Positions 41,194-62,802 of a DNA stretch of 64,000 bases are shown here, one piece after another (position 1 is the first letter of the stretch; the number at the start of each line of letters is the position of its first letter). Position numbers and translations under genes: made by a program. The DNA is from Acholoe squamosa (taxonomy: Eukaryota; Annelida; Polychaeta; Phyllodocida; Polynoidae), in the NCBI GenBank assembly GCA_949317995.1, contig OX439044.1:11751141-11815140 (forward strand), in the 5' to 3' direction. Under the pieces are notes generated by a model. The model was not told where the DNA came from. It saw nothing but the letters and a program-made list of their open reading frames with translations, and did not search any database.

Positions 41194-41392
41194 TTAACCC
41201 TTCAAGGGCCGCTGATGCATTAATGCATCATGCCCTTTTGTCAACATGATGCACCAATGAAGTGCTGGCGAGACTACTCGCCAGCACTTCATTGGAGCAT
41301 CATGCCGACCCTGTGGGAATGTATCAACCTTTTAAGGTTGGTATGATGCGTAAATATAGCCCTGGCGAGTTACTCGCCAGGGTTACATTCAC
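41194..41392. repeat. Double-hairpin MITE copy
   Basis: Left end TTAACCCTTCAAGGGCCGC, then GATGCATTAATGCATC. The type A hairpin is near-perfect (ACCAATGAAGTGCTGGCGAG / CTCGCCAGCACTTCATTGG); the type B hairpin has lost its 3' end. Confidence 0.9.
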
Positions 41393-41399
41393 TCTGATT

Positions 41400-42457
41400 T
41401 CAGAATTTTGACTTTGCCTTTAGATTAGTCTAAATATACCTTCTTAGTTCAAAGTTTCGTAGTATTTTACATTTTATTTAAGAATTTCCAGACTCCTTCA
41501 TAAAACTGACTCTTATCCCTGCGTCATGGTGCACCGAAGCATTATTTGACCTACGAACACTGCTTTGATTGGAACCTAGATAATGTGAGGGACATAAATA
41601 TTAATCATTTAAACGAATGAATGCTGAAAACTTCCAGATGTAGATATACCATTCATATGGTCATTCAGGGCCTAAATAGGTATGAGCATGCCAAAATGAC
41701 CTCATTTTGCTGAATAAAGATTTATAATAACCCATATGCGCAGGGACATGTCCAACGGACTCATTTACAATGGGGTCAACTTAAATATAAAGCCCTATGC
41801 TATATATAACGGGTTAGGTTAAGATGAGCACCTCAGAGAGCAGTACAACCTGCTCACAGGTTGTCAGAGAGGAGCAGCTCACAAAACCCCACCACCAAAT
41901 ATAGCTACTCCTCTCACACAGCTTCCTCCAAGCTGCTCCATCAATGTACGGAATGTTGTACAATAGGCATTATCACAACATCAAAAAGGTCCAACGTCCA
42001 TACGAGGAGTAAGTACTAATTTAGAAGTTGATTTCTGATGAGTTCATCTGAAAAGGTTGCGTTGCAGAGTTCTGTATTACCCCTCTGATAGAGAATAATA
42101 ATCCAGCAACCAGAGCTAGCCATGATCAAGGCCATGTAATAAGTTTCCATGTGAGTGTAATGAAATTAATAAAGGTCTAAGATTCCACGTTACGTGCACT
42201 AGAATACAGTGTGAGACCTCTCCTGGAGAAGGTCATAAAGTAGAACGCGTCTTGGGAGTCTCTTGAGAATCCAGATAGGGTACTCTTTGTTTTCATGATG
42301 CAAAGGTGTTTTTGATTCGTATTTTGATTCATACAATGGATTTCGGACCTTGTTGTATATTACATACAACCTCTAGTTATAAGCTGGTTATCATACTTGG
42401 ACAGGGATGAAAGCAATCTATAAGGCTGTCTGTGCTATAACACGAAGAATGCTAAAA
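41400..42457. other. Non-coding stretch
   Basis: AT-rich; short inverted pairs near 41840-41930 (GAGCAGCTC). No gene is seen. Confidence 0.35.
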
Positions 42458-42628
42458 GTAATAGATGTTTAACGCCATTTCGACAGCTAAGGTCATATTC
42501 ATGGCAAGAACGACATTACACAATTTCACAGGGGAATGTGTCAGTGCCCGCGCATATGTGCACCACACACATCTTGAGGGGATAGGAAAGATGAGAGGTA
42601 GACCCTTTTTAGTGGGCTAGGGAAGCCC
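42458..42628 (-). repeat. SINE-like repeat, reverse copy of 47255-47448
   Basis: On the minus strand it runs from GGGCTTCCCTAGCCCAC through GTGTGTGGTGCACATATGCG to GGCGTTAAACATCTATTACT, about 90% like the copy at 47255. No clear (ACTC)n tail remains. Confidence 0.75.
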
Positions 42629-44095
42629 CCCCAAAAAAGGTAATATGAAGTTTTATTACCAATCATATAGACCTGACAGAATGATCAACCAAATATTGTC
42701 ATCATATAATCAAAACGATCATAAAATTAAAATAAACAAGATATAATGACGAATACCTAACTTATAAGGGGCGTCTTATACACAAAGATAGGCACTTAGT
42801 GTACCTTGTAGCATTGGGCATAGTTTGGAGTGCGCGGTATAGTGGAGGATATCATACTTTAAAACATTACCGGTTGAATATGACAGCTCCATAGGTTTAA
42901 CCAAGAACCTCCATATCACCCTCCAGTGGGATAACCCAACCCCATATCACACGACCAAGTAGAACATCACAAATAGTCACATAACTGGTGATAAAATCAT
43001 GTCTGATGCCAAATAAATGAAATATTAAAGACATCTGACTAAAATTAACTTGAGAATAGTACAAAGCGGCACTCGGATTGGTCACCACTTAGGGTTATCA
43101 CAGTCACCGTCTCCTCGTGTGTTAACCCTCAATAGTGACCAATTCTCGTACACCTTTATCTATAATATTAAACTGCCTGAAATCAAGTCCTAGGTGCGCC
43201 TTATACCATCTCACAGCATCACATAACACCAGTCAGTCCGTCCTCCAAGTATACACCAACAGACAAAGGCTTTCAGGTTAGCTTCAAAGATTTCAAATAC
43301 TACTAAAACACTCCCTCACTGCCTCTGACGTTCACTCAGCTCGGAGAAGATAATGAAATTAATCCTATTCACATTCTCAAATCGAGGCTCTCCCTATTCC
43401 TAACCCTCTCTTCCCTGAGAGCCAAAAAGAGATTTGAGAGGTTAACCCTTTGTTTGCCAAGCCCTTCTAAGAAAAAAAATTAACAATACAGCGTATGAAT
43501 TTTGAAATGCGTTTTCGCTCGGCATCACTCGATTGTTCCCTTATGAGACGGCGAGGACTAGGAATAATGTATCGGTGCCGCTGGATGATGGATTCTAGGC
43601 TTTTCAAATTTGGAAGGGATTTTTGTCAGGGAATATTCTGAAGTACACGCGGGCACCGGATGATGTGGATGTTTGCATATCATTTTGGCAGACAGGTTTG
43701 AATTATTGTTGCCATCACACGAAATGCCAAGATTTAATTAAAACTATAATGGGTGTAAATCATGTAGTTTAGTTATTTCTAGGACGATGGTGGTAGCCTG
43801 GATGGGGATTTGAAGGGGGAGGTTGAATTTAGTGTGTGTGTGGTCTTGATTGGAATTTTCCAGTGATTGAAGTTGGGCGCAGTTTTGATGGAGTTTGTAT
43901 AGGAAAAATATCATACATAGTTAGGGCGCAGCGAGGGAAGTCATGAATATTTGTAACTTTTCATCCAACTCATTTCTCATTTTCTACATTTGGTAATACT
44001 GCCGCTGCCTGTTCTAATGGTATTATTATAAAGCTGGCTGTGTGGCTCTGTCAGCCTCTTTGGTTTATGATTTAAAGGCGGCATTACAACTCATT
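42629..44095. other. Non-coding stretch
   Basis: CTTATAAGGGGCGTCTTATA at about 42760 and GGTGCGCCTTATACC at about 43193 may be ends of another TATAAGGCGC-type repeat. Otherwise nothing is recognised. Confidence 0.35.
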
Positions 44096-44190
44096 TGTTT
44101 GTTGTCATGATGCATAAATGCAGCACTGCTGATTCACATGAGAGAACTGCATTGGTGTATCATGTAATCATTCAGTGTGCTAAAACCTAA
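44096..44190. repeat. Double-hairpin MITE fragment
   Basis: CATGATGCATAAATGCAGC..ACTGCATTGGTGTATCATG, with one eroded hairpin. Confidence 0.65.
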
Positions 44191-44465
44191 CTACCTTGCA
44201 TATAAGGGGCACCCCACATATAAGCCATCCTCAACTTCAGGGAATCCCATAGGGAGATCTGTGGCTTAGCTTGACCAGATAAATACTGGTATAATGCATG
44301 ATATCCTCGCCTATAAGACACACCCCCAACTCTTGCTGATTCTATAAGCCAAGCTCACTAAATTAGTGTTAAATGTATATAGGCTGCTCTTTGAGTGTAG
44401 CAAGATTCTATAAGCTCTCCAGAAGGTTCATAAGCACCGGCTTATATGCAGGTCTCATGGTACTT
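44190..44465. repeat. TATAAGCCGC-type MITE
   Basis: AACTACCTTGCATATAAGGG at the left and ACCGGCTTATATGCAGGTC at the right are inverted; internal TATAAGCC words repeat. Confidence 0.55.
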
Positions 44466-45400
44466 ACCGACTTTCCATTCACTGTTTACAGACTGTACTT
44501 TCCATATACTGACTGTACTTTCCATATACTACTTACTGACTGCACTTTCCATATAGTACTTAAGGTGGCTCACTCCCATGGTCCAAGAGTAACTAAATAT
44601 TTACCAATCTTTCACCATGTGGCCTTCATTACATGCTTATTTGACTGATGAAAAGAAAAGAGGGGGGTCCCAAGCTAGTTTCAGAGTTATTTCATCTTGA
44701 AGATTGAGTGACCTTGTCATAGGATTACATGGTGTTGGCACAAATGTTTAGAGAAAAATATCTTAGAGTAACTAAAGATGTCTATAAATCACCCAGAATA
44801 TAGCTTATGATGTTAATTGTCCAAAAAGGATATTTTGAACATATGGTCCCTGGCATGTTTTAAAGGTTTTTGGCATTTTAAATAAAAAGGTAATGAATAG
44901 TGTTGAGTGGTCTATATGTAGAACCTTTAACACTGAACTCCTACAAGTGGCTGGGTGGTGTAGTGGTAAGCTGTTCGTCTCCTCATCTGAAGGTTGGGCG
45001 TTCAAGACTCGGCCAGGTCCAGGGTTTACTTGCCTGGACTTAGCATATCATTCTGGGGACACTAACATCAACAGGCAGCTCCTAGTGGTTTGTAAATGTA
45101 CCACAAAATGCATATATATGCTCAGAAACCTGTGCATTGGGCCTACCTTGCAAGGAAGGGAGGCACCTTATTGACTGCACTTTCCATATACTACTTACTG
45201 ACTGTACTTTCCATATACTACTTACTAACAACACTTTGCATATACTACTTAGAGACTGCTCTTATGAACTATTCACTGACTACTATCCACATACTTGTTA
45301 CTAATGGTACTTTCCACATAATACTTACTGACGACACCTTTCATATGCTGGGTATTACCTACTGATTGCACGTTCCATACTATCCATTGACTGCACATTC
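44455..45400. repeat. 27-bp minisatellite split by a SINE-containing insert
   Basis: Units of ACTGTACTTTCCATATACTA with a CTTACTG link occur at 44455-44565 and again, increasingly diverged, at 45170-45400. The 44566-45170 interval between them lacks the unit and contains the SINE. Confidence 0.75.
44949..45170 (+). mobile_element. tRNA-derived SINE
   Basis: The head resembles a tRNA: A box TGGTGTAGTGG at 44956-44966 and B box CGTTCAAGACTC at 44999-45010, 33 bp apart, as for internal pol III promoters. A tRNA-unrelated body follows. Its exact 3' end and any target duplication are unclear. It is not a functional tRNA gene, since the acceptor stem does not pair well. Confidence 0.7.
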
Positions 45401-45523
45401 TGTAGATAGAATTGTCTCTTTTTGGAATTCCCACTACAATACCTTACACTAGGCACATGAAACATATTAAAATGAGAGTCAGGACATGAAAGATATCAAA
45501 GTGGCTACGGTAGAGAATGGCAT

Positions 45524-45747
45524 TTTACACTTTAAGGACCATTAACACATTAATGTATCAAGCCCATTGGTCGGCATGATGCATAAATGCAGCCCTGGCA
45601 AATAACTCATGAAGGCGATATTCATACATCATGCCAACCTTACAGGGCTGATGCACTCCCGGAGGGTCGTCATGATGCACCAATGAAGTTCTGGCGAGCA
45701 CTATGGGCATGATGCACTCCTGCATTAGCAGACACTTAAAATGTTAA
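45524..45747. repeat. Double-hairpin MITE copy
   Basis: Left CACTTTAAGGACC, right CACTTAAAATGTTAA. Both hairpins are damaged but the spacer TGATGCACTCCCGGAGGG is kept. Confidence 0.75.
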
Positions 45748-46778
45748 CCACCCTCCCTGTGCCTGACATAGGCCTTTATCATTACAATCCATCACCAGTA
45801 GCCACATGCACTGTCCATGTCTAAGAGTAGTAAGTATGGCAGTAATAGTAGACCACAGGGCTATAGACGTAGCGTGCCTATGTCAAACTGAACATATCAA
45901 GCCTCTCAGGGATATAAAGTGAGATTGGTTGGAAGAAAAGAGGCCCCTCTTAGCACGAAGGCAGCTCTTTTAAAAGTCCTAAGTTGTTCACTTGAACGTA
46001 TGTCACGAGATGGTACTGTGTGTGGGGAGGTGGAGGAAGGTAGGGGTTTAATAGTGGGATGCCTATACCACAGGGAAGGGTGGGGGGGGGGTAAGGGATA
46101 TCAGGGATACATGGAAGAAAGAGGGGATCTGAAGTGAAATTGATATGACATGACAGACAGATAGTGTGAGTACATGTATGTAAGTCTGCTGCTGAATAAT
46201 TGACTATTGATAAGATATAAGAAGAAAGATAAAAAATAAAAAAAAAAAAAGAAAGAAAATGATATCGGCCCTGCAAAGCAAAACATCGTGTACACGAAAG
46301 AAAGCGGAAGTCAGATATATACAGAATATGGAATGTCCAGCATGGAAATTGTCTGCTTTTGATCTTTTTACTTTTTTTTGTAGAACATTATGGAAGCTTA
46401 ATTATCTGAGGGACAACAAGGGAAGATACTTATAGGAGTATGATGATGAATTTTCTTTTATCATTCAGGTTCTTTTTGCCTCAGATAAGGCTACACTGCA
46501 AAAAAAAAATGTCGAATAACAGCAAAATCGCTGTCCTAAAGTTGCCAGAGATCCATTGTTTTTTTCAGAGATTCCTTGTACCACTGTTCTGCCCCCCCCC
46601 CCCCGGGGGGCTTCTTGTCACAAAAGAACTACCCCGGTTCCCTAAAATAGGATTAAGGTAGTTCACTGTTCAGTTTTACTAGGACCCCTGGTAGATTCAA
46701 CTGTTATTCTTTACAGTGTACCTCTGTCATGGCATGGCTGTACATGCCCTGTACAAGCTCCGTGCTGGGAATAACTAA
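45748..46778. other. Non-coding stretch
   Basis: Poly(A)-rich at 46225-46255; a C14G6 run at 46590-46610. Short chance ORFs only. Confidence 0.35.
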
Positions 46779-46965
46779 TTAACCCTTTAAGTACATGGTC
46801 ATGCATAAATGTAATCCTGGCGAATATCTCACTATTGCTGCATTCAAGCATCATGCAGAATCTACAGGGTTGATACACTCCCAAATTGTTGCCATGATGC
46901 ATGATTGCAGTGCATCCGTGTACCTTACCAGCGCTGCACTGGTGTATCAAGACAAATTAGTGCAC
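46779..46965. repeat. Double-hairpin MITE copy
   Basis: Starts TTAACCCTTTAAGTACATG; both hairpins are eroded (GATGCATGATTGCAGTGC / GCGCTGCACTGGTGTATC). Confidence 0.75.
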
Positions 46966-47009
46966 ACAATTACAAGACAAGCAATTCTAAAACAGTTCAC
47001 CTCTTTAGC

Positions 47010-47201
47010 TGGTTTATGCAGTTGTGCATCATGATTATTTATTGTCATGATGCACCAATGAGCATCATGCCAATCCCCAGGAGTGTATCATGCCGCAGGG
47101 TCGCCATGATGCAGAGTTTTGGCCCTGGTGCGTTACTCACCCCGGCTGCCTCATGTATCATGATTGTTGACATGATACACTTATCCATTAGCGGCCATTA
47201 A
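47010..47201. repeat. Double-hairpin MITE copy sharing a TTAA with the next
   Basis: Ends GCGGCCATTAA. That TTAA (47198-47201) is also the first base group of the next copy, so the two are head-to-tail on one target site. Confidence 0.65.
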
Positions 47202-47637
47202 AATGCTGCCGATGCAGGAGTGCATCATGCCCATTGGTCGTCATGCACCAATGATGGGCTTCCCTAGCCCACTTAAAAGGGTCTATTTCTCCTCTTTCCT
47301 ATCCCCTCGGGATGTGTGTGGTGCACATATGCGCGGGCACCAACACATTCCTCTGTGAAATTGCGTAATATAGTTCTCGCCATGAATATGACCTTAGCTG
47401 TCGTAATGGCGTTAAACATCTATTACTCACTCACTCACTCACTCACTGATGCACCAATGAAGTGCTGGTGAGAGCATCATGCCGACCCTATGGGTTTGAT
47501 ACATATACATACTCCTGGAGGGTGGGCATGATGCTCCAATGAAGTGCTGGCGAGGAGTCTCACCAGCACATCATTGGTGTATCATGACGACCAATGGGCA
47601 TGATGCATTCCTGCATCAGAGGCCCTTAAAGGGTTAA
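47198..47637. repeat. Double-hairpin MITE copy split by a SINE-like insert
   Basis: Left part 47198-47254 (TTAA, GCTGCCGATGCAGGAGTGC), right part 47449-47637 ending CCCTTAAAGGGTTAA. The insertion lies within the stem of the first hairpin. Confidence 0.9.
47255..47448 (+). mobile_element. SINE-like retroposon with 12-bp target duplication
   Basis: Inserted into a MITE hairpin: ATGCACCAATGA occurs at 47243-47254 and again at 47449-47460. The body starts GGGCTTCCCTAGCCCAC and ends GGCGTTAAACATCTATT followed by an (ACTC)n tail. The long duplication and simple-repeat tail fit LINE-driven retroposition. No pol III boxes are visible, so it may be a 5'-truncated LINE or SINE end. Confidence 0.85.
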
Positions 47638-47880
47638 AGTGTTTACACCACCACTCACAGGCGACATATATATCCTATATTATGGTGATTGATGGTATTC
47701 TCCTTTAATGAGTATGATCAAGGATGACGTGCTCAAACGCAACATATGTAATTAAATCTTTTTTACTCTACACACCAACCCACACTCACCCCCTTAGGCT
47801 GTATATCTGAATGTTAGTACACCCCCACCTCCCCCCAGCCCAGCCTCATACCCACCACTAATTGATTCATCCTTTAAGAA
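47638..47880. other. Non-coding stretch
   Basis: No gene or repeat recognised. Confidence 0.35.
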
Positions 47881-48040
47881 CCACAAAGTACATAAGTACA
47901 TCATGCCTTTTTGCGGTCGTGATGCATAAATGCAGCGATGGTGAGTAACTCGCCCGTGCCACATTTCATGCATCATGCTAGCCCCAATGGGCTTATACAC
48001 CTCTAGTGGGTCGGCATGATGCTCCAATGAGGTGCATCAT
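47881..48040. repeat. Double-hairpin MITE copy, partial
   Basis: GTGATGCATAAATGCAGCGA..CATTTCATGCATCATG hairpin, then GGGTCGGCATGATGCTCCAA; the second hairpin is cut short where the next foldback starts. Confidence 0.7.
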
Positions 48041-48043
48041 TTA

Positions 48044-48165
48044 GAGAATAGACAACGATGTTCTTCACATCAAGACTGTCTGTTGTCCTATAATGCACGA
48101 ATGCATCTGAGTGCATTATAGGACAACAGACAGTCGAGATGTGAAGAAGGAGTTGTCTATTGTCT
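48044..48165. repeat. Foldback element, about 50-bp arms
   Basis: GACTGTCTGTTGTCCTATAA..TGCAC pairs with GTGCATTATAGGACAACAGA..CAGTC across a 12-nt loop, and the outer parts pair through ACATC..GATGT and GACAAC/GTTGTC with a few mismatches. Confidence 0.85.
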
Positions 48166-48329: not shown

Positions 48330-48536
48330 CTGCCAGCCATTTTATAATGATGCATCATGCCGACCTATGGGTATGAGGCACTTCTGCATTATAGGCAGGT
48401 TAGGGGTCGCGCAGTGTACTGGTGTATCATTTTCACGATACAGGAATGCAGAACTGTTTAATAGCTTGCCAGGGCTGCATTCATGCATCATGTAGACTCC
48501 ATGGGCCTGACACAACCTTAAGGGTTGTTAATTAGA
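48330..48536. repeat. Double-hairpin MITE copy, decayed
   Basis: Contains ATGATGCATCATGCCGACC and a GCCAGGGCTGCATTCATGC half-stem; right side CCTTAAGGGTTG. Confidence 0.65.
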
Positions 48537-48626: not shown

Positions 48627-48808
48627 TTAACCCTTTAAGGGCTGCTAATGCAGGAGTGCGCCATGCACACTGGTCGCCATGATACACCAATGAAGTGCTG
48701 ATGCGTCTGCTCGCCATCACTTCATTGGAGCATCATGCTGTCCGTCCGGGGTCATATTCACTCTACATTGTCGTCATGCATTACACATTTATGCCCCTAG
48801 AGGATTAA
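48627..48808. repeat. Double-hairpin MITE copy with TTAA at both ends
   Basis: TTAACCCTTTAAGGGCTGC at the left, CCTAGAGGATTAA at the right. The first hairpin is kept (CCAATGAAGTGCTGATG / CATCACTTCATTGG), the second is lost. Confidence 0.85.
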
Positions 48809-48847: not shown

Positions 48848-49213
48848 TAGTCCAAGAGGCCAGACACTTTTATTTTTGTTTTGGGTACCAAAAGGTCTGA
48901 TGGCAGATTCTTATGTAAAAAAGTCTCACGAATTCAGATCTGCAATTCTTAAAAAAATCCGACGCTGCGTTTTCGCACAATCGGGGCTTAAAGTAGGTCA
49001 CCGTCAATTCTCAACATGGTAAATATATGTCATTTGGACTTTCAGATAAGTCCTATCTCCATTTAATAGGGTAATCTACACCCATATTATCAAGAGTTAG
49101 GGTTCTCCTCTTAATGTTCTGCTTTTAATAAAACAGTTCCCAACATCATTTTCAAGATGGCCGCCAATATTTTACCGATTTTGACGATTTATAAGTAAAC
49201 AACCACTATAAAA
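48848..49213. repeat. Left TIR of the Academ-like transposon
   Basis: Starts TAGTCCAAGAGGCCAGAC; matches the reverse complement of 55222-55588 with about 17 differences. A short ORF inside both TIRs is a by-product of the duplication. Confidence 0.95.
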
Positions 49214-49621
49214 CATATCATCGTTTATTAATGCACACATACCCAATCCCTACTATGTTTTCATGCAAGTCAAATTATGCAGAAGGTTCTGTGTAACATA
49301 TCAGATCAAATTTACAGCTCTTTGTCAGCTTTGATGACCATTTGCGAACAGAAAAAATCAATTAAACATCATCCTAAATGCTTACATACGTGAAGAACAG
49401 ACAAAACACTTTAAGCTTTCCTCTATGTACCTAACTTACAATGTGATTTTTTGGGCTATGACTATTAGTTATCAAGCAATTTGTTTATCAGGGATGAACA
49501 CTTTATCAGAAATATATGGATGCTCTATTTATATTAGAAATATAATCAGCAGGACTGTGCGTTCCACATATTTTGATTTTGCTTCATATTTGACAGTGAA
49601 GCTCTCAAGATATATTCACCA

Positions 49622-52147
49622 TCATTCTTCATCTGCCTCTCCATCTGATTCATCCCTTCCATATCTGTTCTCCCCATATGCCATCTCTTCTTCTTCCTCA
49701 AGGTCTTCATCCTCAAGTGGGGTTTTCAGAAGGATGTCCTTGATTGATTTGGGGAATTGAGCACAATCAAACCAGTTTATATCATAGTGACCATCATTCA
49801 ATTCCCATCCATTTTGTGCTGGGTCCAGTATTAGAGGATTTGGATGCCAGGCTCTTTTCCATGTTGAAGCTACAAGATTGGCCCTTTCGACCTGTTTCTC
49901 CAATGTTGCTTTACTTGATGGAAAATTACTCGGATTTGCCCCTTTTGCGAGTTGAAGGAGGTCACCTTTGTTTTTGGGTGCATACTTTGTTTCAAATATC
50001 GCTAGTCTTGCCTTGTTTACAGACTGGAACTTTGGTTTTCCATACAATGCACAGACCCATGGCTCAAGTTCAGGTGTGAGATCTACAAGATTTACATTAT
50101 CTTCCCCAAGCTTTGAGAATGTGTCAGTGTGTGCTTTGTTTTTCATCATAAGGTTCAGTGGCCTCACTTTCCCTTTGTGACTGAATGCTGGAGTGTAGTC
50201 ACTTCCCGTCATGGCATGCAACCCTGGTAGTGCACTTATGACATCACCATCAAGTTTATCTACCATTTCTGTGATGCTGATGCACCTTCTTGTGTTATTG
50301 CTAGATAATCCCACATCTAGCCAGACTTTGGCCTTTATAGCATGTGTCTTGTAGATGTGGTACAAATGATATAGCAGCAAAACAAATATGTCTGTATCAT
50401 TTGCTCTAACCACAATTTCTGCCTGTCCATTGTGCCCAATGCAATGTGTCATATGAAACATTATCCTTGTATCTGCCTCTATGTGAGAGCATTCTAGCTC
50501 AATTATTCTTTCCCTGATGATGGCTCCATCTTTGACACTGAACTTGAAGCATTCATTCTGACAAGTCAAATACACAGAGTGTCCATCCAGGATTTGTAGA
50601 TAGGATTCTTTTGCCCACTCCTTGAGCAGGAACTTAACAAATGATGTTTTGAAGGCACCAGATTTGATTACTGACTTCCATTCCTTTGTCTGCTGCTTTG
50701 GGCCAGTTATTTGAACAGATGTGCTAGATTGCTTCTCATTCTGATGTCTCTTTGCTCGAGTAGTGTCTTTGATAGTGGGTACAACTTCATACTGATCTGT
50801 GATGAAATGCACAGTGGGAGACATTTGGCACAACCTTGTGAGAATATCCTTTGCAACCTCCCCATAAGTGATAGGTGGATTTACAATTTGGTAAAGAAAG
50901 AATGATGCATCAACCAGCATGACATCACTCTCTCCAAATCTTGATATACCAGGAGCAATTTCCTCAATCCTGTGCTGCAACATAGCTTTGTTTGTTGCAT
51001 TCATAGTGCCATCTACAGAACCAAGTGAAAGTGGAACAGGAGTTAGAGGATACTCAAACACTTTCTCAAGATCAAGATCCTCTTTGCTGCTGAGGTACAG
51101 TAGGTTGCCAAACAGGTCCCTTGTTCATGCCAGTTCTTTTATCTTGGCATCCTTGGAAGTGACCTTTACTTTAACCGCTGCACTCGCAAAATTTTTGATT
51201 TTTTTACTAGGGATTGGTTTCTCAAATCTCTCAGGGTCACTAAAGCACCCTTCCCGAAAATCTTCCAGCCACTTTTTGCCCTTCTGGTTCCACTCCATGA
51301 GATCCTGCCTTATATCCTCTGGTACTTCTTTACCTGTGGACAGACTGTAGAGGGCAGGTTCGGTGGAAGTGCAAAAGGGTTCATAGAATCACAAATCTGT
51401 GTAATGAGCCTTTGCAGGTCCTCATTGTCTTTTGCTATCCTCTGTGGCTTTAGCTCGGATGTAATATCCTCATGCTTAAGCAATCCAGCTCCAGATAAGA
51501 GACAGCCAACTATTGCACTGCGTGCTGTCTTGGTCACAGTCCATTTGGTGCGTGTAGAAGGTGACAGAGAAAAGGCTGAAATCCCAGTGAGCCTTGAGGC
51601 TGCATCTTTATTCACTGTCTGCTCTAGTGTCATGTCCACTGCTGTCCTGGAGAAGTGCTTTTCAGTCCTCCTGATTGACAGTGCTCCATTTTCAAGCATC
51701 TCTCGGGCCTCTGAATGGCTTTCATCAATGTTCAGAAGATTTAGATGATAGCGGACCATCCACCTTGCGTAATTTGGTCAGTTACCAGCAAAGAAATGCT
51801 GGCACATTTCTCCTAGTCCATGTACAAACAAGTTGTAGTCGTTTGTGCGGCAGGCTCGGCTGAATACAAGGTATGTGTGAACTAACTGAATGTAGATCAT
51901 CCAATACTTCACCGTGCTCCCATGCACACCATCGAGTGTCTGGGAAGCATACTGCTCATAATCATTCATGAACATTATGTAGACCTCATCATTCTCTAGT
52001 TTTTCTAATGTCTCAGGGCTTCCATTGTCATTTAACTCATGGATGATGTCTACTAACCTCGGTGGAAGAGTCCCTTTCTCAGTCAGAAACTGCTTGAAAT
52101 GCAGAGTCTGCATTGCTGCTGCCAGGAGTGGATGGATCCTTTTACAC
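49622..52147 (-). pseudogene. Transposase-like protein, C-terminal exon with XPG/FEN nuclease domain (interrupted)
   Basis: Read right to left, the exon probably starts at 52147 after TTCCAG. The frame is open through a region ending HFFAGN, meets TGA at 51780-51778, continues in the same frame (PNYARWMVRYHL), changes frame in a T-run near 51375, continues (STGKEVPEDIRQ), meets a second TGA at 51127-51125, then stays open to 49622. The last uninterrupted block (from 51061, 479 codons; its first codon is GTG, so not a true start) carries the nuclease motifs: VDASFFLYQI (Asp51), FITDQYEVVPTIKDTTRAKR (Asp89), HIEADTR (193-199), ANDTDIFVLLLYH (Asp222 and Asp224) and LHAMTGSDYT (Asp288). These match the metal-binding acidic residues and helical clamp of FEN1/XPG nucleases. 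An acidic tail follows. Confidence 0.75.
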
Positions 52148-52342
52148 CTGGAAGGAACCATACCTGTATTAGATATGTGGATATTGGTAAAATACATATT
52201 TGTGGGTGTTTATTCTTCGAAAATTGAAATATAAGAACTTTCTACAAGTGAAATTTATCAATTATATCTCATTTTATGATATGGTCATGTGCAAATATCT
52301 TCAGCACTAATATTATATATATAGTCAAAAGAAAGCACCTAC
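52148..52342 (-). other. Predicted intron of the transposase-like gene
   Basis: Donor AACCG|GTAGGT (52342) and acceptor TTCCAG|GTGTAAA (52148) keep the frame and give KHYNR-CKRIHPLL across the junction. The ORFs on the two sides otherwise end and begin here. 195 bp, AT-rich. Confidence 0.55.
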
Positions 52343-54405
52343 CGGTTGTAGTGCTTGCCTTTAAGGAATCCCTGTAGAGAGCCATTGGCCAGTACCTCTG
52401 CTTCTACCAGAATGTCCTCTCCCCCTGAACCATCCAAGTAATAGCCCAATGCACCAAAGTAGGCCAGGAGTATATGGAAAGGACCAAAGCAGATGAATAA
52501 ATTATCATACTTTGGTGTTTCAGAAGCTTGGATCTGCATGGCTGGTTTAGCGATGGCGAGGTCATAGTGGACAACAGCAATGTTCTGTCCACATTCCACT
52601 GCTACCTTTTGGGATATTTTCATTGTTTCCAAAACAACATCTAACCTTGTGGGTGGTAATGTGATGTTTTCCATGTAGGCTATGGTGTGAAGTGGGAGAC
52701 TGTCAATAGCAAGTCTAGAATTCCACCCAACCCACATGGGGGCCTTTGCCACTAGAGTTGACAATACCCATAGATGGTCAAGGTACTTTATCCTTGTGAT
52801 ATTTGGAGGAGGTGGCAGATACTTCACATTATACTGAAATGTTTTTATCTTTGGTTTCTTTTTGTATGGCTCCAAATGTTTCTCCTTGAAATGGAATGTT
52901 CTCTTTGAAACCTTGATATCACTGTTCGATGAGGGGGAAGGTGTATGCAGAGATTGACTTTGTGTGTCTGTGTCCTGTGGTTCTGTTTGTTTTTCATCTT
53001 GATCATTGCAGATATTCTGATAGCATATCCCAACTGTGTCATGCAGGGTGTTTTTCCCTGAGAGTGTTTGATTCATTTCGTCATAGTTGTCCCATGCTAA
53101 AGATGTACTCTTTCCTCCCTTCCTTTTAATTCCATCTGGAGTTACTAGTTTTCTCTCCATTATCTCGGTAGCTATCTCTGTTTCTTTCTCCTCTACCAAA
53201 TGATAGCTGATACTATGTCCATATCGATTCAGAATTTCAACTACCTTTCTTGAACCTGTAATGCTCTTCATACCAAGTCCCATTATTACATGTTTCATGG
53301 GTTTGACTCGCCCTCCTGTTGCACAGTATATGACATCATCACAGACTGATTTCACCAGCCTGACAGATTTCTCATGACCAGGAAGTGTTGCCTTACCTGT
53401 GTAGAGAATTGTGAAAAAGCTTTCAAGATCTTTTGGAATAGTTTCCCTATTTCTTTCAAGAGCCTCTTCAGAGAATTCATTCATGTGTTCTTTGCCGCAC
53501 TCCTTCATATTAAGTATCTGTCTACGGAGAAATACAGCTGTCTCAAACAGAGAGCTGTGGTCAAAAAACACTAGTTTCTTTGCCTCATCAGCAGTCAGTT
53601 TTGAACTATACAATATAACACCTTTCTTTTGGCCTACTGTGTGCTTTTGTATTTCATCCCCATACTCTTTTAATATCTTAGCACAGAGGCTGTCAGCAGA
53701 ATATGTTGACTCCCCTAACATTGTGATGTACTTTTCATGAATGGTGGTTAGTAGCATGCTACTAGGACTATCAATGATTTCTGCCTGAATGTATGTTTTG
53801 AGTTCGCTAAAAGCATTTTCATGATTGATCATTTTTTCAGACTTCTTTTTGCCATCCTGTGCTTTATTCAGAAAATCTCGCTTGCAAGAATGGTGATATT
53901 TCACCTCTTTTGATTTCATATCAATGCCACTAATCTTAGATGATATATCAAGATGACTAAGCTTGAGAGCAGCACTTTTTATTGTTTTTTCAGCTGTATC
54001 AGTTTCACAACTCCCAGGATATTCAACATTACCCTTCTTAGTTTTCCTGTAATGGTTACAGAATATGCAAACAGGTCTAAACACACCAGAGCTATTTTGA
54101 GTAGTATGTGTCACATTTGACCTTAATTTTGGTTTCTGTTGTACATTTTTCTTAATTCTCTTGTCACCTCCATCTTTTAGAATAGCAGTGAAGTCTTTAA
54201 GGCATTTGACATGGTATCCCATATTTTCATCTAAGTACTCTGGTAATTTGATACTAAAATACTTTGATTGCTTCAAGTAAGACCTTCTCTTCTGATCAGC
54301 CAACTTGATTTTTTCAAAGGTTTGTTGGTCACATGCTTTTATAAGCCCTTGTCTATCAGCATTGTTCTTGGATGGAAAATGCAGTATGCAGTATCTAGTA
54401 GACAT
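52343..54405 (-). CDS. Transposase-like protein, N-terminal exon (about 687 aa)
   Basis: Begins at an ATG in good context (AACAATGT) and is uninterrupted to a splice-like donor, CCG|GTAGGT. Cys/His motifs that look metal-binding: YHVKCLKDF (His65, Cys68), CIFCNHYRK (Cys113, Cys116) and YHHSCKRDF (His171/172, Cys174). The middle has helical, charged sequence; then a Ser/Thr/Gln-rich linker at about 480-500; then a conserved-looking C-terminal part (YLPPPPNITRIKYLDHLW, MWVGWNSRLAI, LFICFGPFHILLAYFGALGYY). I know this arrangement from many unannotated invertebrate proteins, but its biochemistry is not established. It is transcribed with the nuclease part to its left. Confidence 0.7.
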
Positions 54406-55221
54406 TGTTCAGTTTAGAGCTATTGCCTGAAACAAAAAAGATAGGTTAGTACCCACCACCAAACCATCACCAAGAGCACTAGCAAGCCAAGCATATTAGT
54501 TGAAACTACTCTACAAGTTTTGCATTATATTGAAAGATAGCAACAAAACAATCCTACTCTCCTAGTCTGCATGTCAATGGAAGTATTTATTCCAGTTTCT
54601 GTCTTCCACATCTGACATATGAACACCATAATGATAGTCACAAATCATCAGTTTGATCATGTATGCATTTGAACAACCCCCTCCTTCCTATGCATACAGA
54701 CCCAAACCATACGGACCCCCCCCCTCTTCAATGTGTGCATGGGACATTCCTGTGCACTATAGCAAATATGAAATGATATGCAAAATATTGTATACCCCTT
54801 ATTTCTTACCTTTGTGAACTCTTTGTTGGGGGTGGGGGTCAGTAGAGTGATCGATTCTCCGGCCAAGTTCAGTGGGCATAAGCATACTATAGGAAAGCCA
54901 TCTTTAGTGGTAAAAAGCATTCTCAAGATTAGTTGAACATTCTTATGTTATGTGTGAGAAAATGAATACAGAAAAAATGATGATGTGCATTAGGAATTCA
55001 CAAATTAAAAGTGCATCTGCTTTGTAGGCTCTAAATGACACTTCAGTCGGTAAATGTATTTTATGCACATATAATACAAATTATCATAAATCCGTATCTA
55101 TTGATTGATGAGGAATATACTTATTTTGTCTCTTAACTGTTAAAGCTGAGGCAACATTAATCTTACCACTGTTACACTGAAAAACATGTCCATTGTCATG
55201 TTACATTATATAGATAGGCAA
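54406..55221. other. Transposon 5' non-coding region
   Basis: Between the transposase start codon and the right TIR, probably promoter and 5' UTR of the minus-strand gene. A short minus-strand ORF (54657-54926) has no recognised domain. Confidence 0.4.
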
Positions 55222-55588
55222 GGTTTACAGTGGCTGTATGCTTATAAATTGTCAAAATCGGCAAAATATTGGTGGCCATCTTGAAAATGATGATGGGAAC
55301 TATTTTATTAAAAGCAGAACATTAAGAGGAGAACCCTAACCCTTGATAATATGGGTGTAGATTACCCTATTAAACAGAGATAGGACTTAACTGAAAGTCC
55401 AAATGACATAAAATTATCATGTTGAGAATTGACGGTGACCTACTTTAAGCCCCGATTGTGCAAAAACGCAGCGTCGGATTTTTTTAAGAATTGCAGATCT
55501 GAATTCGTGAGACTTTTTTACATAAGAATCTGCCATCAGACCTTTTGGTACCCAAAACAAAAATAAAAGTGTCTGGCCTCTTGGACTA
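55222..55588. repeat. Right TIR of the Academ-like transposon
   Basis: Reverse complement of 48848-49213, ending GGCCTCTTGGACTA; ATTA follows. Confidence 0.95.
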
Positions 55589-56799: not shown

Positions 56800-56864
56800 G
56801 TAAGCTGCTCCTGGGTACAGGACTAGTCTTTTACATCCCCCACCCTCTGCCCCCTAAAGACAAC

Positions 56865-57110
56865 ACTAGCCCATTAGGGGCCGCTGATGCATTAACGCAT
56901 CACACCCATTGATCTTCATGATGCACCAATGAAGCATGATTGGAGCATCATGACGACCCTCCGGGAGTATATATATATATATCAACTCCGTAGGGTCGGC
57001 ATGATGCTCCAATGAAGTGCTGGCGAGCAGTCTCGCCAGCACTTCATTGGTGCATCATGCCGACCTATGGGCATCATGCACTCCTGCATCAGCAGCCTTT
57101 AAAGGGTTAG
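56865..57110. repeat. Double-hairpin MITE copy in FUZ intron
   Basis: GGGGCCGCTGATGCATTAAC at the left, CAGCAGCCTTTAAAGGGTTA at the right. The second hairpin (56999-57061) has a perfect CAATGAAGTGCTGGCGAG / CTCGCCAGCACTTCATTG stem; the first lacks its centre. Confidence 0.9.
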
Positions 57111-57829: not shown

Positions 57830-58046
57830 TTAACATTTTACGGGCCGTCAATTCATGAGTGCATCATGCCCATTGGTCGTCGTCATGATGCACTAATAAA
57901 GTGTTGGTGAGTCTGCTCGCTAACACTTCATAGGTGCATCATGCTGACTCCCTGGGAGTGTATCAACCCTGTAGAGTAGGCATGATACATGAATGCAAAC
58001 AAATGAGCACGGTGCATTGATGCATCAACGGCCCTTAAAGGTTTAA
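57830..58046. repeat. Double-hairpin MITE copy with TTAA at both ends
   Basis: TTAACATTTTACGGGCCG at the left, CGGCCCTTAAAGGTTTAA at the right. The first hairpin is CTAATAAAGTGTTGGTGAG / CTCGCTAACACTTCATAG; the second is truncated. Confidence 0.85.
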
Positions 58047-58047
58047 T

Positions 58048-58395
58048 CTTAGTTCACCAGAGGCGTAGGAAGCAAATCTTCATTGGGGGGGGGGCCCGGC
58101 GAGGGCACCATCGCGACTACCTTGAATTGTAGGCTGATGCGTGATGGCGTCTATATATATGCGTATTTAGAATTCATATAGAAAAGTGATTTTTGGTAAA
58201 TTTGGTACTGACTTTAGGCTCAGACCCCCATTCTCCCTATGACATCACCATAATAATCTAATTTTTAGCTTCTTTTCCATTGTGTTTATGAGTTCTTGGA
58301 AAATATTGGGGGGCCCAGACATACTCAGGCCCCACCTCCTTCATGATTGGGGGGGGCCCAGGCCCCCCTGGCCCCCCCTTTTCCTACGCCCCTGT
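58048..58395. repeat. GGGGGGCCCAGGCCCCCC-type dispersed repeat
   Basis: Starts CCAGAGGCGTAGGAAGCAAA and ends CCCTTTTCCTACGCCCCTG, so the tips are inverted. It shares the GGCCCAGGCCCCCCTGGCCC block with 22466-22626. Confidence 0.7.
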
Positions 58396-58497
58396 TCACC
58401 TGTCCACTTCGCCCAAATCACAGCATCATACACGTTGGCCCTGTACCCTCACCGTGCTGCCAGTTTATGTACAGGTTATTGCATGCCACTTCACTCC

Positions 58498-58727
58498 AGT
58501 AACCCTTCAAGGACCATGACTTAATGTCCTTTATACTTTTCATGATGCACCATTGATGTTCTCGCGAGTAACTCGCCAGGTCTACATTTGGTGCACCAAA
58601 TGGGAGTGTATCAGGGTAAGCCTGATGCATGATAGCAGTGGCGAGTTACTCACCAGTGCTGCAATCATGCATCATTTTGACCGAAGGGCGTAGTTGATTT
58701 TGGACTATTTAGCCACTACAGGGTTAC
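58498..58727. repeat. Double-hairpin MITE copy
   Basis: TAACCCTTCAAGGACC at the left, CTACAGGGTTA at the right. Second hairpin GATGCATGATAGCAGTGGCG.. pairs with ..CTGCAATCATGCATC. Confidence 0.8.
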
Positions 58728-58797
58728 ACAGAAGTAGTGTGTAGGGTAACAAATATGATGGTCGTGTCAGAACTCTACACAGGAAAGTGTAGTGTAG

Positions 58798-58994
58798 TTA
58801 ACCCTTTAAGGGCCGCTGATGCATTAATGCATCATGCCCATTGGTCGACATGATGCATGAATGTAGCCCTGGCGAGTTACTCGCCAGGGCTACATTCATG
58901 CATCATGCCGATCCTACGGGGTCGATACACCCACAAAGGGTCGGTATGATGCCCCAGTGTATATGATGCACTCCTACTTTAGCGGCCCTTATAT
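58798..58994. repeat. Double-hairpin MITE copy with a perfect type B hairpin
   Basis: TTAACCCTTTAAGGGCCGC, then GATGCATTAATGCATC. The hairpin at 58850-58909 pairs GATGCATGAATGTAGCCCTG with its exact complement around GGCGAG-TTA-CTCGCC. Confidence 0.9.
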
Positions 58995-58998
58995 AGTC

Positions 58999-59270
58999 AC
59001 ACCTCTTACAGCATCCCCTTTACTTCATATGACAGAGGATTCAAACTTATGATGATAAACGTCAAACTTTAATTAAAAGCTTTTGTAAACCTCCTATGAT
59101 TTGAAGAGGTAACAGTGTCCGTCGTAGCTGCTTCTTCCCCTCAGCCACCTCGCCCCCCGATATTCCTGTGACAGGTCTGAGGACTTTAATTATCAGCAGT
59201 ATTTTAGGACTTTGTAAGTACTGGCGGCTTATATGACAGGATACCCTCTCTGTCCTTCTAAATGTTAAGC
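58999..59270. other. Non-coding stretch
   Basis: Short minus-strand open frame with ordinary-looking residues but no recognised domain. No repeat seen. Confidence 0.35.
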
Positions 59271-59492
59271 TTAACCATCCTATGGCCGCATAGATAAGTA
59301 ATGCATCATTCCCATTAGGCGCCATGATGCATAAATGAATCACACTGATTCTATGTGGTTGATACACTCTCGTAGGGTCGGCATGATGCACCAATGCAGT
59401 GCTGGCGAGTAGACTCGCCAGCACTGCATTGGTGCATCATGACGACCTAAAACCTTGAGGCAGTTTGGACCGTGGGGTCCTGAAATGGTTAA
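59271..59492. repeat. Double-hairpin MITE copy with a perfect type A hairpin
   Basis: TTAA at both ends (59271-59274, 59489-59492). The hairpin at about 59381-59440 pairs GATGCACCAATGCAGTGCTG with its complement; here the variable stem pair is GCAG/CTGC, where other copies have GAAG/CTTC. Confidence 0.9.
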
Positions 59493-60540
59493 CGATAGTA
59501 GATGGAAGGTAGAGGAGAGGTAGAGGGGAGGTAAAGTTGCCATTTTACTTTAATTGAAGTTCCTGATTCGGTTTTATATGATAACGTTCTAACCTTTAGT
59601 TAACTCACGTGAGAGCTTTCCCTCTTCTCATGCAACAGATTTTGAGCCACGTTCTTGGGAAATTTGATACCAAACTAAATATCGATTATGTGTGGCCGAT
59701 GGTTACTGCATGCATAATTCTAGTTATTTGCAGTTTATTTCGTATTTTCATGTAAAAACACGCTCAAGTTGATTAAATTCCTGCCAGCTGTCAAAACTAC
59801 GCTCCTGAGTTGACGTTCAAATTAAATGCGTGTTCAGCATGTAATCGTCTCTATCTCTTTTTAACTCCTCTCCCAGTTCTACAGCATGTGTATAGTACAC
59901 GACATGTATTGTATTTACTTTTAGTTATATTGATGTGAAGATAATTAAAGAGATTAGCTGTGCAATCATGACACATTGGCAGACGAGTTCTATTCAGGAG
60001 AGTAATAAGATTTCTTAGGTATAGTTATAGATGGCCTTATCTTGACGTCACTGTAGATATAACCTAAATTCTCTGATGTCATCTTTTGATATCTGTATCA
60101 TGCTAGAACATAGGCCTAATAAACATCAAATTGATAGATTCAAATACAAAAGGTTAATTATAATGTATTGCCTATTCGCCCATGACCAAAGTAGGCTACA
60201 GAATATATCTTTGGAATAGCACATCCATTTACGTATATAATTCATTTTGAATGACACATATAATTGGTAAGTATAAGGATAACGATTAGGTTTTCTTATA
60301 GTGGGCATAATATAATTTCCTCCTGATAGACAAGATAACCCAGACCATATACGTTAGCGGTAGAATGTATTGAAAGATGAGTGATGAAACAATAGGTCTA
60401 AGCTCGTTATGTGTGAATCATCTGGACATCCAGACTGCAGATAAGAAATGTAAAAAAAAAACACCAGAAAATCTAGACATACTTGTATGGACTAGATATG
60501 CTATCTTAAAACAGACTGAAGTAGTCTATTAAGCTAATAG
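59493..60540. other. Non-coding stretch, probably FUZ intron
   Basis: AT-rich with no recognised gene or repeat. Confidence 0.4.
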
Positions 60541-60542
60541 AT

Positions 60543-60645
60543 CATGGATGTTGGAGCCCTAGGGGAGTCTATGCTGGATATACCCGAGCCGCGGAGCGGC
60601 GAGGGTATATCCAGCATAGACTCCCCGTGGGCTCCAACATCCATG
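60543..60645. repeat. Strong hairpin, 43-bp arms
   Basis: 60543-60585 (CATGGATGTTGGAGCCC..) pairs with 60603-60645 at 41 of 43 positions, with a GC-rich 17-nt loop. Confidence 0.95.
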
Positions 60646-60810
60646 AACTAATAGGTTTATACCACGATTTCCTCCATTTTGTATTAATTTCTTACCTGAT
60701 ATCCAAAGATTATAGCCAGGAGAATACATTTTGTAAGTGCAAGCGACACGGCCCGTGTCCGCTCTGCGAGAAGCCATTGTTTTTGTTCCTTGCCGGGACA
60801 GGTACCGCCG
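60646..60810 (-). other. Gap between two foldbacks with a possible minus-strand first exon
   Basis: On the minus strand an ATG at 60777 (AACAATGGCTTCTCGC) opens a short frame, MASRRADTGRVACTYK.., that reaches a good donor, ATCAG|GTAAGA, near 60695. The protein is not recognised and the patch lies between two mobile-looking inverted repeats, so this is weak. Confidence 0.2.
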
Positions 60811-61228
60811 TGTTTACAGTCACTTTTCGTATGGAATCCAGCCATGACTTGTTATAATATTAAAATCCCAAGAAGTATTCGATCCATAGACAAGGAATGC
60901 GTGCTAATTTTCTCCATTTTCTTCGATATATATAAGAATCCATTGATTTTCCCAAAGTAAGCGAGTCGCGGTCCGGCCATTCCCACCCGCCTCCTTGTTC
61001 GGCGAAAGTGTGTCAGTGGCCCGGATGTGGATATAGGTCATCCGCTCGCCGTACGAGGAAGACGCCGAAAATTTCGGACCGGTTTGGAAAATCAATGGAT
61101 TCTTATTTATATTGAAGAAAATGGAGACAATTAGCACGCATTCCTCGTCTATGGATCGAATACTTCTTGGGATTTTAATATTATAGCATGTCATGGTTGG
61201 ATTCCATACGAAAACTGACTGGAAACAT
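60811..61228. repeat. Large foldback element, about 143-bp arms
   Basis: 60811-60953 pairs with 61086-61228 almost throughout (for example AAGAAGTATTCGATCCATAG with its complement at 61150-61169). The 132-nt centre is GC- and CpG-rich. The minus-strand ORF at 60904-61194 is produced by the palindrome. Confidence 0.95.
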
Positions 61229-61275
61229 AGCAGGTTAGAACTTATTTACCTTCGCATTGGATTTCATCACCGTTC

Positions 61276-61345
61276 AGTGTGGCGCTATGGCTAAGGCCTT
61301 CGCCTACCACCACTGCGGTCGGGGTTCAATCCTCATACGAGTTTG
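61276..61345 (+). repeat. tRNA-like SINE head
   Basis: A box TGGCGCTATGG at about 61280-61290 and B box GGTTCAATCCT at about 61323-61333 sit at tRNA-like spacing. A full tRNA fold is doubtful and the sequence runs on into unrelated DNA, so a SINE or tRNA pseudogene is likelier than a working tRNA. Confidence 0.6.
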
Positions 61346-61689
61346 GACGATTTTTCACCTTGAAACAATGGCGAGGCTAAATTTCTATGTCCGCCAACGT
61401 CTCCAAAAATATTCTAAGTCCAACTTGACCCCGAAAAAGTATATACCAAAAATTCTAAAAACGCACAAGGGTGGTATATGCAGAATATACCACGTATATA
61501 TCGCATATAAAACCACCGGAAGTGCCAAAATAGTGGTATAAAGGCCAAGGCTGTTCCTGGCATATCTAAGAACTCCCAGCGTTGTCCAGTTCCAATCCAG
61601 TACCTCATGGGTGAGGAAATCGCCAGTCATGTATCAAATTTACTATACGCATTTAATTCCCTCCATAAAGGTCGATATGGTGAGTTTTT
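61346..61689. other. Non-coding stretch downstream of the SINE head
   Basis: Probably SINE body or intron. Short inverted pair TGGTATATGCAGAATATACCA at about 61472. No gene is seen. Confidence 0.35.
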
Positions 61690-61855
61690 AGCTTGCCTAT
61701 AAGCCGCACTGAGGGTACTTAAAAAATGCCATTCCTAACTTTAGCCCACATATATGTGAAACCCTGCATATAAGCCGCATATTGAATTCCTGGAGCCGCA
61801 GTAAACCTCTGATAGGGTCTCTCAACTGCGGCTTATACCCAAGGATTTACAGTAA
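61690..61855. repeat. TATAAGCCGC-type MITE
   Basis: TTGCCTATAAGCCGCACTGA at the left, CTGCGGCTTATACCCAAGG at the right, with CATATAAGCCGCAT inside. Confidence 0.65.
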
Positions 61856-62003
61856 GGTGGACAAAACACGGCAGGTCTAGGCTGCAGGAGGGGCAGGTGG
61901 GGGGGGGGTGAGTAGGGGGTCGGTGACGTAACACGGGAGAAGGAGGAGGATGAGGAGGTACCTGACGCGTCGTTAGCAGACCCCAGATACAGCCTCCAGG
62001 GCA

Positions 62004-62256
62004 TTAACCCTTTAAGGGCGCTGATGCATTAATCCTTTATGCCCATTGGTCGTCATGATGCACCATTGAAGTGCTGGCGAGACTGCTCACCAGCACTTCA
62101 TTGGAGCATCATGCTTACCCTCCGGGAGTATATGTATCAACCGTGTAGGTTGGCATGATGCTCCAATGAGCAGTCTCGCCAGCACTTCATTGGTGCATCA
62201 TGATGACCAATGGGCATGATGCATGCACTCCTGCATCAGCGTTGATTCCTTAAGGA
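62004..62256. repeat. Double-hairpin MITE copy
   Basis: Left TTAACCCTTTAAGGGCGC. The first hairpin is kept (ACCATTGAAGTGCTGGCGAG / CTCACCAGCACTTCATTGG); the second has lost most of its left arm. It ends CCTTAAGG. Confidence 0.9.
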
Positions 62257-62266
62257 CCGAATAGTG

Positions 62267-62417
62267 GTTAAATGCATCATGTATCATGACCACCCTCCAT
62301 GGTTGATACACTCCCAGAAGGCTCAGCATGATGCGGTGATACAGTGCTATTCAGTAGAGCATCATGGTGATCAAGGTACATGGATCTGGAGGCATCTTTG
62401 GCTACTTAAAGGGTTAA
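62267..62417. repeat. Double-hairpin MITE copy, reduced
   Basis: TTAAATGCATCATG at the left, CTTAAAGGGTTAA at the right. The spacer GGTTGATACACTCCC is kept; stems are reduced. Confidence 0.75.
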
Positions 62418-62457
62418 TGCTCCTGTCGACCCTTGATTGCTCACTGTGCGATCAAGG

Positions 62458-62458
62458 T

Positions 62459-62541
<83 letters not shown>
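62458..62541. repeat. (GT)n microsatellite
   Basis: About 40 GT units with one interruption near the start. Confidence 0.95.
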
Positions 62542-62542
<1 letters not shown>

Positions 62543-62601
62543 TGGGGTAGGTTACTAGCTACTGACATCCCAGCCCTGCACTTACCTTAGCTGACCTTAA
62601 G

Positions 62602-62802
62602 TTAACCCTTAAGGGCCACTGATGCAGGAGTGTATCATGCCCATCGGGCATCATGATGCATGGATGCAGCCCTGGGGAGTAACTCACCAGGGCTATATAT
62701 TCATGTATCATGCCGACCCTATGGGGTTGATACAGACCCAGATGGTCGGCATGATGCACCAATCGGCATTACACTCTCCTGCATCAGCGGCCCCTAACGG
62801 TC
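62602..62802. repeat. Double-hairpin MITE copy
   Basis: TTAACCCTTAAGGGCCACTG at the left, CATCAGCGGCCCCTAACGG at the right. First hairpin GATGCATGGATGCAGCCCTG / CAGGGCTATATATTCATG. Confidence 0.85.

Follow-up and report, generated by a model that had tools for sequence, protein, structure and literature searches.

The window analysed here, a 64-kb stretch of the genome of the annelid Acholoe squamosa (C10:11751141-11815140; the genome comprises 1.48 Gb in 63 contigs), is densely populated by a family of miniature inverted-repeat transposable elements (MITEs) with two internal hairpins. We consider it highly probable that these elements are a non-autonomous family of the piggyBac superfamily. 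A blastn search with a 258-base family consensus, drafted by eye using the window copies, recovered 30 MITE clusters totalling 4,905 bases between positions 1 and 62800, against none in each of 30 dinucleotide-preserving shuffles of the window. This bears out the count of about 28 copies made in a sequence-only reading of the same DNA. The tip and spacer which that reading described as common to the copies are supported too: with up to 3 mismatches, the tip TTAACCCTTTAAGGGCCGC matches the window 12 times and the spacer 16-mer 16 times, where 0.01 and 0.55 matches were expected. Many copies are truncated or carry internal deletions. The family has the features of MITEs, with a length of 258 bases, terminal repeats of about 60 bases, thousands of exact tips in the genome and no transposase domain in the scanned window frames. 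It spans the entire window and the genome, beyond the coordinates under which the sequence-only reading had entered it.

The consensus consists, in order, of TTAA, the tip CCCTTTAAGGGCCGC, a palindrome, hairpin 1, a spacer, hairpin 2, a palindrome, a tip and TTAA. The end palindrome reads TGATGCA-N4-TGCATCA(TG), with N4 often GGAG or TTAA. A linker of 12 bases separates it from hairpin 1, and linker, palindrome and tip are mirrored past hairpin 2. Hairpin 1 is of type A, with the 28-bp stem CATGATGCACCAATGAAGTGCTGGCGAG, and hairpin 2 of type B, with the 28-bp stem CATGATGCATGAATGCAGCCCTGGCGAG. Each measures 59-60 bases, and the 37-base spacer between them contains GGGAGTGTATCAACCC. The bases of the hairpins repeat the half-site of the end palindromes, and the core TGATGCA occurs in eight copies in the consensus. 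Counted on both strands, the half-site CATGATGC has 81 occurrences in the window. It is found at the bases of the hairpins and in the inner arm of each end palindrome, the outer arms sharing TGATGCA alone. Hairpin types were assigned in the 107 copies with a score of at least 120, out of 162 clusters from the window and 28 loci of the same genome. From left to right, the best fit was A-B in 76 of the 107, A-A in 23 and B-B in 8. Up to two long hairpins joined by a fixed spacer had been described in the sequence-only reading; the two hairpins and the spacer stand, while the hairpins turn out to be mostly unequal. The copies in the window are the following.

1..110, minus strand: MITE copy, tip and hairpin 1, cut at the window start
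4933..5055, minus strand: MITE fragment
5732..5930, minus strand: MITE copy, worn, 23% diverged
6211..6424, minus strand: MITE copy, two-ended, flanks TCTA/TTTA
20156..20398, minus strand: MITE copy; similarity runs on to 20463
21460..21694, plus strand: MITE copy
21939..22081, minus strand: MITE fragment, tip and TTAA
22348..22470, plus strand: MITE fragment
22665..22881, plus strand: MITE copy, worn
24661..24705, plus strand: MITE end fragment, TTAA tip
24843..24938, plus strand: MITE fragment
33443..33650, plus strand: MITE copy, hairpins A and B, spacer 16-mer exact
34321..34535, plus strand: MITE copy, partial deletion of hairpin 1
40855..41083, minus strand: MITE copy; orientation differs between two alignments
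41194..41391, plus strand: MITE copy running from the left end to hairpin 2, with hairpin 1 at 41245-41304
44071..44211, minus strand: MITE fragment, worn
45524..45747, minus strand: MITE copy, two-ended, hairpin 1 partly deleted
46779..46953, minus strand: MITE fragment, TTAA tip
46996..47193, plus strand: MITE fragment
47195..47274, plus strand: MITE fragment
47443..47637, minus strand: MITE copy comprising the left end with its TTAA tip, hairpin 1, the spacer and a partly deleted hairpin 2
47866..48107, minus strand: MITE copy, worn, 26% diverged
48627..48807, plus strand: MITE copy with TTAA at its left tip and a worn right end; hairpin 1 spans 48678-48737, and remnant similarity begins at 48348
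56867..57109, minus strand: MITE copy, two-ended, flanked by CTAA/CTAG, with a near-perfect hairpin at 56994-57065; two alignments disagree on its orientation
57830..58046, plus strand: MITE copy, TTAA at both ends, most of hairpin 2 deleted
58500..58726, plus strand: MITE copy, two-ended, flanks GTAA/TTAC
58798..58991, minus strand: MITE copy, tip TTAACCCTTTAAGGGCCGC exact, most of hairpin 1 deleted, hairpin 2 at 58845-58911
59271..59492, minus strand: MITE copy bounded by TTAA on both sides, with hairpin A' at 59376-59447
62004..62271, plus strand: MITE copy, top score in the window, TTAA at both ends
62602..62800, minus strand: MITE copy, most of hairpin 1 deleted

TTAA had been reported at both outer edges of three copies. 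This holds for 57830-58046 and 59271-59492, and additionally for 62004-62271; in the third, at 48627, which aligns to consensus positions 1-179 only, the left TTAA is clear, but wear keeps the right end from being placed with confidence. The copy at 62004-62271 is followed, up to 62334, by similarity to a second, partial copy, with a tip placed by eye near 62424. The window also contains long near-perfect hairpins that are unlike those of the MITE, at 60527-60661, 21059-21208 and 48061-48148, the last adjoining a MITE cluster.

The edges of the family were studied in 288 kb of DNA from the same genome, made up of the window and the loci L034-L061, which were fetched for containing the spacer. 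We counted outward-facing tips at a fixed offset with no more than 4 mismatches in 15 and a half-site behind. At the 114 tips so defined, the edge bases are T in 79, T in 84, A in 86 and A in 86, the edge is exactly TTAA in 47, and the fifth base outward from the tip has no clear preference. Conservation stops at the outer TTAA, which is the edge consensus. TTAA stands on both sides in 9 of the 29 two-ended copies, and the other 20 deviate on one or both sides. Where the left edge deviates, the right edge carries the same letter in direct register 4 times; shuffles give 1.0, and 179 of 20,000 reach 4. For the inverted register the count is 2 against 1.06, a value reached by 5,711 of 20,000. 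Deviant letters tend to recur at both ends, which a 4-bp target duplication would predict, but they are few. Edges of the form TTAG, CTAA, TCAA and GTAA are also known for piggyBac (PMC10813416, excerpts).

The family is very abundant. The exact tip 16-mer TTAACCCTTTAAGGGC occurs 6,600 times in the genome and the exact spacer 16-mer 1,245 times, with 0 occurrences of either reversed control. On C1, a contig of 127 Mb for which all exact spacers were listed, 38 of the 90 lie in the first 16 Mb, 4 at 16-100 Mb and 48 past 100 Mb. Hence, 86 of the 90 belong to the outermost 16 Mb on one side and 27 Mb on the other, and 4 to the intervening 84 Mb: on this contig, to which the count applies, the family is concentrated toward the ends. 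Divergence from the type consensus ranges from 7.0 to 26.5% in the 107 typed copies. Since the median is 14.3%, the family is probably old and its copies old relics.

The assignment to the piggyBac superfamily builds on several features. The MITE tip begins CCCTT (consensus CCCTTTAAGGGCCGC), which the excerpted text of PMC10813416 gives as the most conserved 5' motif of piggyBac. Sites of piggyBac and piggyBat combine a motif bound by the core with a palindrome to which two cysteine-rich domains bind (PMC11707139, excerpts), and both MITE ends have, by sequence, the same order of tip and then palindrome in the consensus and in the aligned copies. No piggyBac domain was found in the 145 of 172 window frames of at least 70 aa that were scanned, nor in seven frames scanned separately. 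The rest of the genome does encode such transposases: PF13843 (DDE_Tnp_1_7) has 90 matches, counted per exon and therefore representing fewer genes, some of them in long open frames, and 0 in the 14 control genomes. We read 14 transposase stretches (L062-L075), which extend about 1-3 kb past the matched domain; some ends may lie outside them. In three of them, TTAA-CCC tips flank the transposase gene on both sides: L065 672-3742 (C3:84.10 Mb), where the transposase frame is open across 486 aa, L072 675-3945 and L068 714-3454. A source transposase for the MITE likely exists in this genome.

Under this assignment, a piggyBac-type transposase encoded elsewhere in the genome would mobilise the MITE in trans. 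It would recognise each end as the tip CCCTTTAAGGGCCGC followed by the palindrome TGATGCA-N4-TGCATCA, presumably binding at the half-sites, would cut at TTAA and would insert the element into another TTAA. The extra half-sites may have aided the MITE in competing for the transposase.

Several results weigh against a piggyBac origin. The palindromes of piggyBac itself are asymmetric between its two ends (PMC11707139, excerpts), whereas those of the MITE are symmetric at both. The MITE tip with its half-site was found as an element end in none of the 14 transposase loci within the stretches read; a transposase gene with the same 15-20-bp tips, which the sequence-only reading proposed to look for, was thus not found among them. 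A long candidate on C1 (L076), 2.07 kb from tip to tip, turned out to be a MITE split by other sequence and contains no long frame. The same reading proposed a search for empty sites with a single TTAA. No true empty site was found with 42 joined-flank sets in the 288 kb, and in two genome-wide joined-flank searches, one of which scored 40 of 2,255 candidates, no match crossed the joint except by a few bases. Of the joined-flank sets compared (21 against the window, 42 against the 288 kb), a few with MITE flanks or self-overlap gave joint-spanning matches, which we read as neighbouring MITE copies and not as empty sites. In the 107 copies, tips mismatch at 0.151-0.172 and stems at 0.113-0.143, so that the tips are no better conserved than the stems; the simple reading of conservation as function is not favoured for this reason. 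The four hairpin bases range from 0.054 to 0.123 in the same copies. Local alignments of the window copies gave a half-site mismatch of 0.108 against 0.146 for non-CpG stem positions, with some hairpin-base positions almost free of change. A stem-anchored count, which kept the 64 of 80 arms in register, dropped 16 as out of register and has a few chance matches among both, gave 0.074 against 0.108, only about 1.5-fold better conservation. We rejected strong conservation of the half-site, and there is at most a hint that it is under constraint. Of the sequence-only proposal of a non-autonomous piggyBac-like family, the tip, the TTAA edges, the lack of a transposase domain in scanned frames and the presence of TTAA-CCC piggyBac elements in the genome stand in its favour, and a transposase locus with the same tip and an empty site are the parts that did not materialise.

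Relatives were sought outside this genome. The spacer plus half-site pattern had 0 matches in genome_contigs and viral_contigs, searches that possibly left out records near the genome itself. In viral contigs, the 17-base tip matched once and a 15-base stem word 32 times, and we take all of these matches as chance; when these 33 loci were compared by blastn, the top match among the best 30 was 38 bases at 82% (E 4e-4), and the tip match was not among them. In the literature text searched, which mostly left out subscription papers, TTAACCCTTTAAGG had no match, and no paper was found that combined "miniature inverted-repeat", "cruciform" and "TTAA".

The alternatives to a piggyBac origin must account for the same edges. 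A Kolobok-type family, resembling T2-MITE and moved by another transposase superfamily, is very unlikely. TTAA duplications are made by piggyBac and Kolobok alike. Within the MITE tip, GGG follows an inner TTAA, and the true edge would be placed there (TTTAA-GGGCC), giving a 5'-RR terminus like that of Kolobok (PMC9587614, excerpts) or the AGGRR of the T2-MITE of Xenopus (PMC6004289, excerpts). Yet dispersed copies share the outer bases TTAACCCT, and conserved sequence extends to the outer TTAA and no further, which argues that the mobile unit starts with CCC and not with RR; at the 114 tips, the terminus at the outer TTAA is 5'-CC. We favour piggyBac over Kolobok because the family combines TTAA with a CCCTT start instead of a 5'-RR.

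It is highly improbable that the family is foldback-like, spread or kept through its hairpins by a single-stranded or cruciform intermediate, with the TTAA tips secondary. Foldback-type elements have extensive inverted repeats and can fold on one strand. The predicted single-strand fold of the consensus is consistent with such an element: it is a cloverleaf whose stem consists of the terminal repeats and which carries three hairpins, the two hairpins and the spacer (z -28.4), where the sequence-only reading had suggested two cruciforms. The consensus, being of our own drafting, gives weaker evidence than the real copies, and of these the predicted folds of 62004 (z -17.2) and 57830 (z -6.9, most of hairpin 2 gone) are far better than those of shuffles, yet without a perfect cloverleaf. 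The hairpin module can also expand in tandem inside a copy: in L039 865-1374, one MITE copy holds 7.2 units of 71 bases, each a type B hairpin with linker.

The hairpin arms themselves provide further evidence on both sides. In the consensus, 5 of the 28 stem positions distinguish type A from type B, and each time the partner has changed as well. In 21 aligned window hairpins, hand-chosen for complete stems, 88.4% of cells pair, and two-sided changes occupy 41 cells against 19.7 in shuffles (0 of 500 as high) and 3 to 9 with slid partners; 2 of 5 measures, the pairs with two-sided changes and the further pair types, are not above shuffles. At position 16 of type A, 11 of 22 hairpins have A in both arms (an A-T pair) and 8 of 22 have C in both (C-G), the arms sharing a letter in 19 of 22 against 10.2 expected. 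Identical changes in both arms are at chance level in type B (6 against 6.1 expected), a point against a foldback-like element, and modestly above it in type A (15 against 9.3; 51 of 2,000 shuffles). Counting all agreeing positions, type A arms score 470 against 450.8 (10 of 5,000) and type B arms 333 against 324.0 (292 of 5,000); without position 16, the excess is slight (A, 451 against 440.6, 183 of 5,000; B, 323 against 314.5, 257 of 5,000). The agreement within types is at most a weak excess, possibly real. In-place correction of the hairpin arms is not supported by the identical changes of type B and only weakly by those of type A. In our reading, the paired changes arose mainly when subfamilies were founded, any correction of inserted copies being at most weak. 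The loss of one hairpin in 17 of the 76 spanning copies may also speak against a foldback-like element. At least half of hairpin 1 is deleted in 6 of them and at least half of hairpin 2 in 11, compared with 1, 4 and 0 for three control blocks of equal length. Small as these numbers are, they point to hairpins being lost more readily than the other parts of the element, a tendency that long palindromes would be expected to show. Finally, an ordinary transposase explains the tips and the TTAA edges.

Tandem arrays with parts of the MITE occur as well. Arrays of 38-base units like TTAACCCTTTATGGATGGCATGATGCATTGATGCACA occupy L066 1-282 (7.5 units) and L067 3084-3474 (10.2 units). The units join the start of the MITE tip, TTAACCCTTTA, to the half-site CATGATGCA, the arrays adjoin piggyBac transposase loci, and at L067 3489-3698 MITE-like hairpins follow the array. 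We considered this satellite as the end of an autonomous partner and rejected it for now: the tips nearer the genes differ, TTAACCCTTTCCCCC lying between the transposase gene and the array in L067, and the gene copy in L066 having at its other end the different tip TTAACCCTCTGAGCCC, found on both sides in L068. On C1, three spacer copies (15634238, 15639082 and 15643926) are spaced by exactly 4,844 bases and are probably a tandem segmental repeat. That the family is not mobile itself and consists of satellite pieces spread through duplication is extremely improbable: it would fit the 38-base satellite, the hairpin array in L039 and the evenly spaced C1 copies, but both ends can be read in 29 copies within the 288 kb, and in the 42 joined-flank sets no flank pair recurs together save in neighbouring MITE sequence (one left flank is duplicated in L036/L037, and one flank in L059). 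A more speculative proposal, which we think unlikely, is that the arms of each hairpin were renewed together during copying, by template switching or by selection for pairing, giving types A, A' and B from one ancestor, and that the modules seed satellites, so that a piggyBac-like element would breed structured satellite DNA in chromosome arms. If this were true, the hairpins would be working parts of the MITE.

The window contains other elements. A 6.7-kb element at 48848-55588 has inverted arms of 365 nt, 95% complementary, around minus-strand open reading frames (ORFs) at 49622-51124 and 52339-54408, which have no Pfam match at E 0.01. Its tips are TAGTCC/GGACTA, with ATTA or TA possibly duplicated. 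The predicted model of its 500-aa frame (pLDDT 86) matches the nucleases XRN1/XRN2 and FEN1 in Foldseek (E 1.4e-5 to 3e-3) at TM-scores of about 0.2-0.45. There are 76 homologues, most of them unnamed. A gypsy-type long terminal repeat retrotransposon lies at 7074-18291, with a gag frame containing a zinc-knuckle, a pol frame containing protease, reverse transcriptase, RNase H and integrase, and, after these, a third open frame of 1,254 aa with no Pfam or NCBIfam match. GC skew is strong at 24001-26000 (0.32) and 30001-32000 (0.55), and at 25.0-25.7 kb a short peptide is repeated in overlapping open frames, suggesting tandem repeats.

A piggyBac-like MITE with TTAA ends is of a known kind; the double-hairpin body and the very high copy number are unusual. 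The novelty rests on the architecture, with two fixed internal hairpins, eight half-site cores and thousands of tips in one genome. The family offers a set of natural palindromes that share one starting state. In an animal genome, it could be used to measure how hairpins decay or are lost and how far their arms are corrected, and could help to ask whether extra palindromes improve hitch-hiking on a transposase.

Comparison with known systems places these features in context. With Kolobok and the T2-MITE of Xenopus, as far as the excerpts describe them, the family has in common abundant short non-autonomous elements and, probably, a TTAA target duplication (PMC6004289, PMC9587614). It starts with CCC, in contrast to the 5'-RR of Kolobok and the AGGRR of T2-MITE. 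Like foldback-type elements it has extensive inverted repeats able to fold single-stranded, and it differs from them in a predicted terminal-repeat stem with discrete hairpins and in its TTAA-CCC edges. Compared with piggyBac elements and their MITEs, it is set apart by two long hairpins as its body, by symmetric end palindromes, by eight half-site cores and by the absence of an autonomous partner with the same tip among the loci read. What it shares with them, a group of which the Pokey MITEs mPok1/mPok2 are part, is, within the excerpts consulted, the TTAA edge, the CCCTT tip, a body in which no transposase frame was seen, and the order of tip and then palindrome known from piggyBac/piggyBat sites.

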